NCBI RefSeq assembly: GCF_000521565.1
Contig: NZ_CP002701.1
Span: 62,001-126,000 of the forward strand
DNA from: Buchnera aphidicola str. G002 (Myzus persicae)
GTDB taxonomy: Bacteria > Pseudomonadota > Gammaproteobacteria > Enterobacterales > Enterobacteriaceae
DNA: 64,000 nucleotides
Direction: 5' to 3'
Made by a program: the position numbers and the translations under genes. The notes under the pieces are model-generated. The model worked only from the letters and a program-made list of their open reading frames with translations, was not told the DNA's origin and made no database searches. Below are positions 57,091 through 63,934 of this stretch, piece by piece. Numbering within the stretch: position 1 is the stretch's first letter; each line of letters opens with the position of its first letter.

Positions 57091-57163
57091 AAATATCATG
57101 TTAATAAAATGGAACCAATTTTTTAAAAAATTTTTTTTCCTGAGATTATGGAATAATATAATT

Positions 57164-58695
57164 ATGAATTTTTTTAACATAAAAAAAAATATAATTTTAA
57201 GGGAGGTATTAAATGTTTATCTGAAAAAAATAAATTTGATAATTATTTATTCAAAACTTTACCATTATCTGATAAATTTTTAGTATTTATTGATGGGAAT
57301 ATTTGTAATAAAAAAATATGTGTTAAAATTAATCAAAAAGTACTTCGTGGACAACCGTTGATTTTGGACGACCAGATTAATGTTCCTATACATGCACCTA
57401 CTTCCGGTCAGATAGAAGAAATTTCTTTTTACACAGATCCTTTGGATCCACATAAAAAAAATATAAAAATTGTGATTTTATCTGATTATTTAGATCAGTG
57501 GATCAGATTACAACCTATTAAAAATTATAAAAAATATAATTCTAAAGAATTAATTCAAATAATTCATAAATCTGGTATTGTTGGCCTTGGTGGTGGTCAG
57601 TTTTCATCTGCAAAAAAATTAATGTTAAGTGTTAACAAAGTGCATACTTTAATTGTTAATGCAGTAGAAAGTGAACCATATATAACATCAGATAATTGCT
57701 TAATAAATAATTATATAGATGAAATTTTAAAAGGATGTGAAATTATATCTTGGATCTCTAATATTAAAAAAGTTTTAATAGCTATTCAAGAGGATAAAAT
57801 CGAAGCAATTTCAAAAATTTATAAATATATTGAAAATAGATTATCATTTAAAATTTGTATTATTAAAAATAAATATCCTGGAGGCAGTAGTAAAGTACTG
57901 ATCAAATCTTTAACAGGAAAAGAGATTCCTCATGGCAAACATTCTATAGATATAGGATATCTTGTTTTTAATGTTGCAACAATATATGCTATAAAAAGAG
58001 CTATTTTGAATGGAGAACCATTAACTGAACGTATTATTACTATTTTAGGTAGTAAACATTTTTTATCTGGAAATTTTTGGACTAGAATTGGAACTCCAAT
58101 AAAATATTTTTTAAATAATCAAAAATATAAGATACCTCTAGATACTACTGTATATTTAGGAGGTCCATTTATGGGTAAAAAAGTTAACGATTTGAATTAT
58201 TCTATATTAAAAAATACTAATTGTATTTCAATTCAATTTAAGAAAAAACAAAACAAGAGTATTATTGAGCAGGGTTGTATAAGATGCGGCTATTGTTCTA
58301 CTGTATGTCCAGTAAATTTACTTCCTCAACAACTTTATTTATACAGTAAAAATGGTCATCATGAAAAAAGCAAAAGATATGATATATTAGATTGTATAGA
58401 ATGTAAAGCATGTGAAAAAGTTTGTCCAAGTTCTATCCCCTTAGTTAATTATTTTAAAATGGAAAAAAATATCATAAAAAATATTGAATTAGAAAATCAC
58501 TTAAAAAAAATATCGTTTTTCCGTTTCAAAAAAAGAGAAGCAAGATTGTTAAATACTCAAAGATTCGTCAATAAATTTAATAAGAATAGTATCGAAAGAA
58601 TTATAAGTAAATATGAAAAATCAGATGATATTAAAAAAAATATAAGAAAAAAACAAGTTCAGGACGCAATAGAACGAATGAAAAATAAAAAATAA
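57164..58695 (+). CDS. rsxC: Electron transport complex subunit RsxC, frame split at an A9 tract
   Basis: Peripheral subunit carrying two 4Fe-4S clusters (CIRCGYCSTVCP and CIECKACEKVCP) and the NADH/FMN-type domain. Conserved sequence begins upstream of any good start: NFKGGIKC, LRGQPLILD and VPIHAPTSGQ are in one frame, whereas the probable start (ATG 57164, MNFFNIKK) is in another. The shift falls at nine A residues (57181-57189); one extra A gives a continuous 510-codon gene. The Ala/Lys-rich repeat tail of E. coli RsxC (740 residues) is mostly absent. An upstream in-frame ATG at 57098 is possible. Slippage-rescued or damaged. Confidence 0.87.
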
Positions 58696-60414: not shown

Positions 60415-61111
60415 AGATTTTTTTATCAATAGATTATGGAAAAGAAATTCTTCTTTAGTGCAATTATTAGGGCTATGCCCAGTTTTAGCTATGACAACTA
60501 ATGCTATTAATGCTATAGGTTTAGGTATCACTACTACTTTTGTCTTGACTATTACTAATACTATTATTTCTGTTTTTAAAAAATTTATACCTAGAAATAT
60601 AAGAATACCTATTTATATGATGATTGTTTCTTCTGTTGTGACATGTGTTGAAATGTTAATTCATGCTTATCAATATAATTTATATCAGTCATTGGGTATT
60701 TTCATTCCTCTTATAGTTACGAACTGTATTATTGTAGGTCGAGCAGATCTTGTTGCTTATAAGAGTTCAATATTTTTTTCTTTTTTAGATGGAATTTTAA
60801 TTGGACTAGGCTCAACTATTTCTATGTTTATAATAGGTTCTATAAGAGAAATATTAGGTAATGGAACTTTATTTTTTGGAGCTAATAAAATTATATCTTC
60901 TATAGATAGTTCTTTTTTTATTACTTTATTAGATAAAAATTCGACAATAATTTTAGCTGTTTTACCACCAGGTGGTTTTTTTATATTAGGTTGTATAATT
61001 GCTATTAAGAACTTTATAGATCGAAATAATAAGAAAAATACTGTTTTAACTAGTTTAAAATGTTCTTGTATAAATAAAAAAATTAAATATGAACAAAGAA
61101 AAACGTTATAA
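60404..61111 (+). CDS. rsxE: Electron transport complex subunit RsxE
   Basis: Polytopic membrane subunit, paralogous to RsxA. It is 235 residues (E. coli 231). [35 protein letters not shown] and the [13 protein letters not shown] segment are typical, including the two cysteines equivalent to those of RsxA. It overlaps nth by 23 bp, an unusually long overlap suggesting coupled translation. Confidence 0.95.
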
Positions 61112-61724
61112 AATATTATCATTGTTTTATGATAATAATCCAAATCCGAAAATAGAATTAATTTTTTCTTCCGATTTTGAATTATTATTATCAGTGATAT
61201 TATCAGCAAAGTCTACTGACAAAATAGTTAATAAAACTACTAAAATATTATTTAAAATTGCAAATACTCCACAAAGCATTTTATGTCTAGGGATCGAATG
61301 TCTTAAAAAATATATTAGAAATATTGGGTTATATAATTCTAAAGCATTAAATATTATACGTACTTCTTTTTTAATAATATATAAATATAATGGAAAAATT
61401 CCTAAAGATCGTATTGAATTAGAGTCTTTACCTGGTGTGGGAAGAAAAACAGCTAATATTATTTTAAATACTTTATTTAAAAAAGATACTATTGCCGTGG
61501 ATACTCATGTTTTTAGAGTTTCTAATCGTACTAATTTTGCTAAAGGTAAAAATACAAAAGAAGTTGAGAATAAATTAATAAAAGTAGTTCCTACTATTTT
61601 TAAATCTAAAATGCATTTATGGTTTGTTTTTCATGGTCGTTATATTTGTACTGCACGTAAAATTAAATGCAATATGTGTTTAATAGTTAGATTATGTGAA
61701 TTTAATAAAAAAACTTTGAAATAG
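61089..61724 (+). CDS. nth: Endonuclease III
   Basis: Base-excision repair glycosylase/lyase for oxidised pyrimidines. It is 211 residues, as in E. coli. Catalytic Lys lies in [13 protein letters not shown] near 120 and Asp in [12 protein letters not shown] near 138. The 4Fe-4S cluster cysteines in [19 protein letters not shown] keep the C-x6-C-x2-C-x5-C spacing. It is attached to the rsx operon as in E. coli. One of few repair genes seen. Confidence 0.97.
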
Positions 61725-61747
61725 TTAATTTTTTTATAGGTATATAA

Positions 61748-63934
61748 GTGATTATTGTAAAAGTTGTTTTACCTTTACCAATTAGACAATGTTTTGAATA
61801 TTTTATGTCTGATAAAATGTGTCCTCCTGTTATTGGTAGTCGAATAGTAGTTCCTTTTCGTTCTAAAGATATAATTGGTATTATTATTTCTTTTTATACA
61901 AACACGAATACAAAAAATTTAAATCTAAAATATGTAAAATCATTAATTGATACTAAATCACTATATACTAATGTTTTATTAGATCTTCTTCAATGGATTA
62001 GTAAAAATTATTATTGTCCTATTGGAAGCATATTTTTTTCTATTTTACCAAAATTATTACGTAATAATCATATAATAAAAAATCAATATATTTATCAATG
62101 GACTATAACAAAAAAAGGACAAGAAATAGATCTAAAAAACTTTATAAAAAAACAGAAACAATTTAAAACTCTAATGTTTTTAAAAAAAAATAACATTTTA
62201 ACTTCCGAATTAAAAAAATATAATTTGTCTGAATTTATTTTAAAAAAGCTGGAAGAACAAGAATTATGTAAAATAAAAAAATATTCTAAACCTTCACTTG
62301 AATATAAATATATATGTGACAACGAAAAAAATTTTTTTGTAAATAAAAATATTTTATTTCATATTAATAATATTTTAATAAGAAGAAAATTTGCATCGTG
62401 GTTGTTAACTAAAGTTAATTTATATACAAAAGTGAAATTTTATTTGAAATTGATTAGATCAGTGCTACTAAAAAATAAGCAAGTTTTGATTTTAGTTCCC
62501 TATATTAAAGATATTAACGTCATTTCAGTTTTTTTAAAAAAATTTTTTAATATTTCTATTAATATAATTCATTCAGAATTAAGTAATATTCAATACTTGA
62601 ATAGTTGGATGAAGATACAAAATGGTGAAAACTTAATTATAATTGGTTCAAATAAAAGTGTATTTTTACCTTTTTTAAAATTAGGTATAATTATTATTTT
62701 CGAAGAACATAATTTGAATTATAAGAATAGAAAAACATGTAGATATAATTTTAGAGACATAGGAATATTAAGAGCATATAGAGAAAATATACCTATAATT
62801 TTGGACTCTGATACTCCTTCTTTAAAAACATTGCATAATATTTTTTTAAAAAAATGTTTTTACATAAAAATAAAACAAGATTATAGTCTTTTAAAATTTA
62901 ATAATGATATTGTTGATTTAAAAAAAGAAAGAATAAAATTTGGTTTGTCTTTAACACTGATAAATGAAATTAATAAAAATTTTAAAGAAAGACAGGTGTT
63001 ATTAATTTTTAATAAATTTAATTTATTTTTTTTAATACTTGTCTGTAATATATGTGGATATATCAACAAATGTAGTAATTGCAATGATTATTTTGAAGTG
63101 AATCAATACCATAATATGCTATTTTGCAGATTTTGTTTGATTAAAATAAAAAAACCTATATTTTGTTATAATTGTAAAAATTTATCTTTAATAATAAAAA
63201 ATATCAGAATAGAAGAAATAAAAAATAGTATACAAAGTTTTTTTCCTAAAAAACCATTGTTTTTTTTATTAGATAAAAAAAAAATTAATGAAAACTTTTT
63301 AAATAAAAAATCTTTTAATTTTTCAGTTACTACTCCGTTTGTTATTTTTACAACAGAAGATATTGTTTATAATTATTATTTTCCTTGTGTCAAATTGATT
63401 GGTTTGATATGTATTGATAATTATTTTCTTTCTTTTAATTTTCGCTCTATAGAATATTTTGCTCAATTTTATATGAATTTGAAAAAATTAACGAAAAAGG
63501 GTAAAAAATTATTGAAAATATTAGTACAAACGTCATTTTATAATCATTTTAATTTAACAGAATTATATAATAATGGATATTTTTCTTTTGTAAAAAAAAT
63601 ATTATCGACTAGAAAAAAATTTTTATTACCACCTTGGAGTATACAAAGTATTATTTATTCTGAAAGTTTAGATTCTAAAAAAAATATTATTTTTTTAAAT
63701 TTATTTCGTAAAATTTTAGAAAAAAAATCTAAGGAATATCATGGTTTTTTATGGTGTATGAGTCCTTATCCTTGTTTTTTTCTTAAAAATAAAAAAAAAT
63801 ATGTTCATCAATTATTAATCCACTGTTCTTCACGTCTATATTTTAATAATTTATTCCACGAATGCATGAATATAATGAATTTTTTTGATATTGCAAAAAA
63901 AGTAAGATGCATTATAGATATAGAACCTAATTAA
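61748..63934 (+). CDS. priA: Primosomal protein PriA with degraded helicase motifs
   Basis: Restarts collapsed replication forks by loading DnaB. It is 728 residues (E. coli 732), starting at GTG 61748. The zinc-binding region is perfect: eight cysteines at 433, 436, 442, 445, 460, 463, 473 and 476 with E. coli spacing. The helicase core is not. Walker A GVTGSGKT aligns with KVNLYTKV (221-229), Walker B DEEH is FEEH, motif III GSATP is DSDTP, motif V GTQM is TTED, and the QxxGRxGR motif is MNLKKLTKK. ATP-driven unwinding is therefore very unlikely, yet length and C-terminus (DIEPN) are kept. Confidence 0.93.
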   Translation: MIIVKVVLPLPIRQCFEYFMSDKMCPPVIGSRIVVPFRSKDIIGIIISFYTNTNTKNLNLKYVKSLIDTKSLYTNVLLDLLQWISKNYYCPIGSIFFSILPKLLRNNHIIKNQYIYQWTITKKGQEIDLKNFIKKQKQFKTLMFLKKNNILTSELKKYNLSEFILKKLEEQELCKIKKYSKPSLEYKYICDNEKNFFVNKNILFHINNILIRRKFASWLLTKVNLYTKVKFYLKLIRSVLLKNKQVLILVPYIKDINVISVFLKKFFNISINIIHSELSNIQYLNSWMKIQNGENLIIIGSNKSVFLPFLKLGIIIIFEEHNLNYKNRKTCRYNFRDIGILRAYRENIPIILDSDTPSLKTLHNIFLKKCFYIKIKQDYSLLKFNNDIVDLKKERIKFGLSLTLINEINKNFKERQVLLIFNKFNLFFLILVCNICGYINKCSNCNDYFEVNQYHNMLFCRFCLIKIKKPIFCYNCKNLSLIIKNIRIEEIKNSIQSFFPKKPLFFLLDKKKINENFLNKKSFNFSVTTPFVIFTTEDIVYNYYFPCVKLIGLICIDNYFLSFNFRSIEYFAQFYMNLKKLTKKGKKLLKILVQTSFYNHFNLTELYNNGYFSFVKKILSTRKKFLLPPWSIQSIIYSESLDSKKNIIFLNLFRKILEKKSKEYHGFLWCMSPYPCFFLKNKKKYVHQLLIHCSSRLYFNNLFHECMNIMNFFDIAKKVRCIIDIEPN

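Follow-up and report, generated by a model that had tools for sequence, protein, structure and literature searches.

Among the closest described counterparts of the protein examined here is the PriA pseudohelicase of Deinococcus radiodurans, for which the published report gives no measurable ATPase activity, negligible unwinding, binding of single-stranded DNA (ssDNA) and forks, and evidence of an interaction with DnaB (PMC4504706). In Escherichia coli, the engineered K230R and K230A mutants of PriA, studied in PriB-containing systems, are ATPase-dead and retain primosome assembly (PMC4504706, PMC10175261), strains with ATPase-dead PriA are viable (PMC4504706), and DnaB-loading assays were performed with K230A PriA (PMC10175261); the ATPase of PriA is therefore not required for DnaB loading. 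As described in two reports, wild-type E. coli PriA holds all three arms of a fork, and its zinc region swings and closes a pore round the lagging-strand ssDNA, exposing the DnaT site (PMC10175261, PMC13377028). PriB docks on PriA residues D438, S481, T482, and H483 (PMC10175261) and holds the acidic DnaT linker carrying D66 and D70, and the DnaT C-terminal domain docks on the HD2 domain and the C-terminal domain (CTD) of PriA (PMC13377028). Actinobacterial PriA has been described as smaller and very divergent (PMC1193525). This study concerns the priA gene of Buchnera aphidicola str. G002 (Myzus persicae), located in a stretch of 64,000 nucleotides (NZ_CP002701.1, positions 62,001 to 126,000; hereafter the window) of a 651-kb genome in two contigs, and its counterparts across the genus and the family. 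The second contig (7,799 bases) is the plasmid; over its first 6,000 bases it shares 99.7% identity with leucine plasmids of B. aphidicola from M. persicae, four records reaching 99% or more, in agreement with the named host. We consider it probable that Buchnera PriA is a pseudohelicase under purifying selection, kept as an ATP-independent, PriB-free, fork-binding platform for reloading DnaB.

The gene occupies 61748..63934 on the forward strand, on which all features given below also lie, and encodes 728 amino acids between a GTG start and a TAA stop. The protein aligns end to end with residues 3-727 of E. coli PriA (PDB chain 8fak_H, E 5.6e-103). This full-length homology takes in the 3' DNA-binding domain (3'BD; 61760..62050, residues 5-101, PF17764, E 6.2e-23), the winged-helix domain (WH; 62090..62272, residues 115-175, PF21213), the zinc region (CRR; 63044..63175, residues 433-476), and the CTD (63632..63928, residues 629-727, PF18074), the last of which, in E. 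coli, contributes to the surface on which DnaT docks. Among the Pfam models, 3'BD, WH, and CTD score above their cut-offs, and DEAD and Helicase_C below. The TIGR00595 model likewise matches above its cut-off (270.3 against 230.35). Actinobacterial PriA has likewise diverged and has lost its helicase motifs; the window protein, however, scores 492.6 bits with NF004065 (PRK05580.1-1), which is below the model cut-off of 858, and at best 55.2 bits with PRK14873, which we take to be the actinobacterial PriA group. Since NF004065 far outscores PRK14873, the motor loss in Buchnera looks like a lineage separate from the actinobacterial one. A second PriA was looked for in the window genome and none was found. 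The GTG start sits immediately after an in-frame TAA stop (61745-61750), and a V/M-I-I start at the same site is seen again in most intact genus genes.

A priA locus was present in all 36 genus genomes searched, that of the window included, as one intact frame in 27 and in broken form in 9; motif and cysteine counts over 36 genomes combine the 27 intact open reading frames (ORFs) with pieces of the 9 broken genes. In alignments to E. coli PriA, all 36 show a destroyed Walker A motif (GVTGSGKT in E. coli) and replacement of motifs V and VI, together with the full set of eight zinc cysteines. The former Walker A of the window protein reads KVNLYTKV (62411..62434, residues 222-229), the former Walker B reads FEEH where E. 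coli has DEEH (62699..62710, residues 318-321), the former motif III reads LDSDTPSLKT, with DSDTP in place of GSATP (62801..62830, residues 352-361), the former motif V is represented by FTTEDIVYNYYFP (63347..63385), and the former motif VI reads NLKKLTKKGK where E. coli has QVAGRAGRAG (63476..63505); the protein no longer carries the set of SF2 helicase motifs I-VI expected of PriA. Cysteines 433, 436, 442, 445, 460, 463, 473, and 476 reproduce the spacing of E. coli cysteines 436, 439, 445, 448, 463, 466, 476, and 479.

The same losses recur residue by residue among the 27 intact genes. Walker A glycines G224 and G227, the Walker-B Asp, and motif VI arginines R584 and R587 are gone from all 27, and G229 and T231 each from 26. 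The Walker-A lysine column holds K in 26 genes and R in one, E321, E322, and H323 are retained in 25, 27, and 26 genes, respectively, and the S, T, and P of motif III persist throughout (LDSxTPS is invariant), with G355 replaced in all 27 by a newly fixed Asp (G355D). Altogether, the genus has newly fixed residues at 32 positions, and 13 of these fall in columns at least 97% conserved among motif-intact relatives. From its occurrence in all 36 genomes, we infer that the motor-dead state predates the diversification of the sampled genus. An earlier note on this DNA had read the motif correspondences, the retained length, and the exact spacing of all eight cysteines correctly; its further statement that every ATPase and helicase motif is lost holds for Walker A, the Walker-B Asp, and motifs V and VI, and goes too far for the lysine, the E/E/H residues, and the S, T, and P of motif III, which persist.

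Selection was estimated with a codon model on a fixed PriA tree of the 27 intact genes, domain by domain. The dN/dS ratio was 0.241 in the 3'BD, 0.300 in the WH, 0.207 in motor lobe 1 (E. coli residues 200-419), 0.199 in the zinc region, 0.249 in lobe 2, and 0.260 in the CTD, and fixing it at 1 worsened the fit by 47-354 log-likelihood units across the six domains. Codon bootstraps (30 replicates each) agreed, with the exception of an upper bound of 1.0 for the zinc region, which looks like a failed optimisation. Saturation as a source of the low values was ruled out by simulations on the fitted lobe-1 tree, because the estimator returned 0.93-1.04 for neutral codons (5/5) and recovered a simulated ratio of 0.2 as 0.205-0.219 (3/3). 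The dead motor lobes evolve under much the same constraint as the zinc and DNA-binding parts. Rates relative to the whole protein (WH left out) were also compared with those of 29 motif-intact PriAs, comprising 28 family members and E. coli. The ATP-motif columns rose from 0.23 in these proteins to 0.90 in Buchnera, and the corresponding values were 1.58 and 0.99 for the 3'BD, 1.57 and 1.24 for the CTD, 1.03 and 0.96 for the zinc region, 0.92 and 0.91 for non-motif HD1, and 0.87 and 1.10 for non-motif HD2. As the dead lobes are still constrained, the release of constraint is confined to the ATP-motif columns and does not extend to the whole helicase core. Walker A and Walker B are thus lost and the DNA-binding domains kept under selection, as in a PriA pseudohelicase of the Deinococcus type.

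The partners of PriA have been retained unevenly. DnaT was found in 36/36 genus genomes, with a C-terminal domain highly conserved in the 12 DnaTs aligned, and an ORF of the IstB/DnaC family (246-252 amino acids) adjoins dnaT in 36/36, its product sharing about 65% identity with E. coli DnaC at the six genus loci that were aligned; a longer ORF from the same family search (454-499 amino acids) is probably DnaA. Searches of the 36 genomes gave no PriC, no RecA, and no PriB above the cut-off, and without RecA there are no RecA-made D-loops. Sub-cut-off PriB-family matches in all 36 (at most 28.3 bits against a cut-off of 72; ORFs of 172-204 amino acids) appear to be SSB-like and were not counted. 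The sites that serve PriB in E. coli are altered on both remaining proteins. None of the 27 intact genes retains T482 or H483, the D438 column holds assorted unrelated residues, and S481 is S in seven; in the window, S481-T482-H483 corresponds to N-L-S (63179..63187) and D438 to I. In the 12 aligned DnaTs, the D66 column is a gap in nine and N or P in three, and D70 is a gap in all. Neither PriB nor the docking residues of a PriA-PriB-DnaT system were therefore recognized, and, judged by sequence, the surfaces facing the lost partner are eroded and those facing the retained partners and DNA are kept.

Like D. radiodurans PriA, Buchnera PriA has, judged by its motifs, lost Walker A/B function. 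The two differ in that Deinococcus belongs to a different phylum and its PriA shows a Walker A Lys-to-Arg change and poor motifs I and II, whereas in Buchnera the changes reach motifs I, II, III, V, and VI, PriB and the docking sites are lost as well, and DnaT is present. In contrast to the K230R and K230A point mutants, the Buchnera state is natural, genus-wide, and PriB-free. It shares with the E. coli PriA-PriB-DnaT preprimosome the conserved PriA domains and the DnaT C-terminal domain, and lacks its PriB, acidic DnaT linker, and ATPase motifs. Loss of the motor motifs from Buchnera PriA was not reported in the titles and abstract openings of the open-licence papers listed by searches on Buchnera PriA and DnaT, endosymbiont priA, and PriA pseudohelicases. 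A PriA pseudohelicase is already known from Deinococcus (PMC4504706), and Buchnera adds a PriB-free variant.

In the mechanism that we propose, PriA would use its 3'BD, HD1, and CTD to grip an abandoned fork, and the lagging-strand ssDNA would be threaded through the pore that the zinc region makes up together with HD2 and CTD. The C-terminal domain of DnaT would then dock directly on PriA with no need for PriB, and DnaT would bring in DnaB/DnaC. Restart of this motorless kind would be limited to forks with a single-stranded lagging arm, or with an arm opened by another helicase; for a symbiont that has no RecA and few forks to remodel, the lost unwinding would presumably carry little cost.

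To place the genus in its family, 119 family genomes were sampled; a PriA match was obtained in 105, 103 of these outside the genus, and PriA was undetected in 14/119. Motifs were read in 41 of the 103 outside genomes (28 best-scoring loci and 13 chosen for small genome size), a selection that biases the frequencies: 28 were motor-intact, 10, from as many other genera, motor-dead (G125, G082, G093, G098, G087, G040, G126, G122, G136, and G065; Walker A read in 9/10), and three partly eroded (G101, locus L072; G050, L111; G150, L119). The PriA of G136 is a piece up to a TGA with Walker A unread, and that of G150 was read through motif II only, with its cysteines unread. All eight cysteines are kept in the 10 motor-dead proteins and in G101 and G050. 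G101 combines GASGSGKT and NEEHD with a decayed motif VI, and the three partly eroded proteins are possible intermediates of motor loss. PriB scored above the cut-off in 0/10 motor-dead, 1/3 partly eroded, and 12/14 motor-intact genomes searched (dead versus intact, Fisher p 7e-5, ignoring relatedness among genomes). Motor-intact G048 and G068, which have no PriB, suggest that PriB can be lost before the motor, and the reverse order is suggested as well by G101, in which PriB is present and the motor is eroding. Presence of DnaT does not differ significantly between the two states, since it was found in 5/10 motor-dead genomes and in 1/10 of the motor-intact genomes of small or medium size that were searched (p 0.14).

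In an RpoB tree of 29 rows, from which two symbiont genomes with DnaT and no PriA found (G053 and G134) had been dropped, the motor-dead state needs three changes, at least two by the starred branches. Union of the 14 motor-dead rows in a single clade was not rejected by an approximately unbiased (AU) test (p 0.335), and the likelihood rose above that of the free quick tree when either G093 or G082 alone was constrained to join the Buchnera group; independence of the full motor losses is therefore not proven. Separate erosion is argued for only by the partly eroded G101 and G050, which retain the GKT of motif I and thus cannot be derived from the Buchnera state without reversal. Tentatively, and with more doubt than for Buchnera itself, one might generalize that, in reduced insect symbionts, PriA has repeatedly become an ATP-independent scaffold in connection with PriB loss, to serve as a minimal PriA-DnaT-DnaC restart platform or a platform for origin-independent initiation.

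A number of observations weigh against the proposed role of Buchnera PriA. In E. coli, PriA with a broken PriB-docking site failed to load DnaB over the whole set of PriB concentrations tested (PMC10175261), and PriB normally keeps the zinc region where DnaT can dock (PMC13377028); in Buchnera, PriB and PriC are both unfound (0/36 each). In view of the need for PriB docking in E. coli, Buchnera PriA would have to keep its zinc region open unaided, load DnaB less efficiently, or act otherwise. The bypass mutation of the dnaC809/810 kind is DnaC E176G, and a changed DnaC was rejected as a way round, with residue 176 being E in 8/8 loci aligned, six of them from the genus. Of the residues that we take to form the 3'-end pocket of PriA (F16, D17, G37, and K61), D17 and G37 are replaced, with F16 kept in 27/27 and K61 in 24/27 intact genes. 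Whole-gene dN/dS of priA (0.244) is higher than that of its upstream neighbour and control, the endonuclease III gene nth (61089..61724; 0.146). Family-invariant residues are kept at 9/40 motif columns versus 76/213 elsewhere (p 0.14), and this contrast was dropped as evidence because of its p value; many non-motif invariants have also changed, as in any fast-evolving symbiont protein. Outside the genus, DnaT was found in five of the 10 motor-dead genomes with no match in the other five, and it is retained in G053 and G134 (L128 and L129). These last two genomes suggest a PriA-independent role of DnaT, perhaps at the origin, and the five without a match suggest that PriA may in turn have work that does not involve DnaT. 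Finally, priA is broken in nine of the 36 genus genomes, by a single break in eight and by three in G008, and is therefore dispensable in some lineages.

One explanation, which we consider unlikely, is that PriA is no longer needed and is dying slowly, with the motor eroding first and the ORF surviving because decay is slow. The broken genes fit such a course, as do the deletion of the WH (about residues 110-190) in 8/27 intact genes, the excess of priA dN/dS over that of nth, the 14 family genomes without detectable PriA, and the disappearance of both auxiliary restart proteins, PriB and PriC. However, dN/dS stays at 0.2-0.3 in every domain of the intact genes when neutral simulations return about 1, the frame is unbroken in the window and 26 other genomes even though the intact genes are just 46-67% identical to the window copy, and residues have become newly fixed. 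The breaks themselves also speak against long decay: each of the eight single breaks has a homopolymer of 9-12 A or T within the overlap of both frames, although every intact gene likewise carries one to five A-runs of at least nine. When the longest piece of each broken gene is analysed with its nearest intact genes, dN/dS is 0.16-0.24, far from 1 and similar to the intact sets alone (the intact-only comparison covers 7/9). Six of the eight single breaks (L039, L047, L051, L053, L058, and L065) fall at A9-A11 runs between residues ~147 and 200, at or just past the WH. This region coincides with the one deleted in eight intact genes, a hint that the protein can do without the WH or that its two halves may function as separate polypeptides. 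Rescue by slippage is known for Buchnera poly-A tracts, and the broken copies may be recent breaks, slippage-rescued genes, or assembly errors, all three of which fit the data.

A second explanation, rather unlikely in our view, is that PriA has taken on a new function, for example as an ssDNA- or structure-binding nucleoid or origin factor. The altered 3'-pocket residues, the 32 newly fixed positions, the lost PriB site, the absence of RecA-made D-loops in the 36 genomes, and the lack of a DnaT match in 5/10 other motor-dead lineages would be compatible with it; against these stand the retention of the zinc region, the 3'BD, and the CTD, the DnaT C-terminal domain kept within the genus, and a constraint spread evenly, as expected of a whole scaffold. 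We regard as very improbable a cryptic enzyme, in which ATP would still be bound or hydrolysed by some unusual route. The persisting Walker-A lysine (26/27), E321/E322/H323 (25, 27, and 26 of 27), and motif III S-x-T-P (27/27) might be taken as traces of such an enzyme, but G224, G227, the Walker-B Asp, and the motif VI arginines are lost in 27/27 and G229 and T231 in 26/27, the motif columns now evolve at about the background rate, and Deinococcus PriA, with poor motifs I and II and a Walker A Lys-to-Arg change, has no measurable ATPase (PMC4504706). The ATP-independent, PriB-free platform for DnaB reloading thus remains our favoured reading. As for the earlier note, a helicase-dead yet selected PriA is well supported (motif loss in 36/36; dN/dS 0.20-0.30), and neither observation it had named as telling against this, a second intact priA in the genome or dN/dS near 1 with the zinc domain included, was made: there is one copy only, and all domain ratios obtained from the 27 intact genes fall within 0.20-0.30. 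The separate estimates it had called for place all parts under selection, with the helicase core about as constrained as the zinc and DNA-binding regions and only the ATP-motif columns relaxed. Its separation of functions is borne out for the dead motor and the selected remainder, and needs qualifying for the putative fork-binding, DnaB-loading scaffold, which has changed too, in PriB docking, in the WH (8/27), and in two 3'-pocket residues.

Some observations concern neighbouring genes and individual genomes. In the flanks retrieved for the 41 outside loci, the neighbour of priA is nth, as in the window, in two (G065 and G125), rpmE, as in E. coli, in 35, and neither in four. G136 (L118, L161), a small symbiont genome with a 258-kb main contig, has three in-frame TGA codons in both RpoB and PriA and probably reads TGA as Trp. 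Elsewhere in the window, rsxC appears frame-shifted (57098-57375): its main ORF (57358-58695, TTG start) seems to be without the N-terminal part, a shortfall judged against what we presume to be the extent of E. coli RsxC. That part runs on upstream in the frame of the main ORF (NFKGGIKCLSEKNK...), and the upstream stretch meets, close to an A9 run (57181-57189), a start in a different frame that is led by ATG.

The genomes compared here repeat in nature, dozens of times over, a separation of functions so far known from laboratory point mutants and Deinococcus, and they can show which parts of PriA are needed once unwinding and PriB have both been lost. Our reading predicts a PriB-free mode of DnaT docking on PriA. 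It also means that annotations naming the protein "helicase PriA" overstate the repair capacity of reduced genomes.

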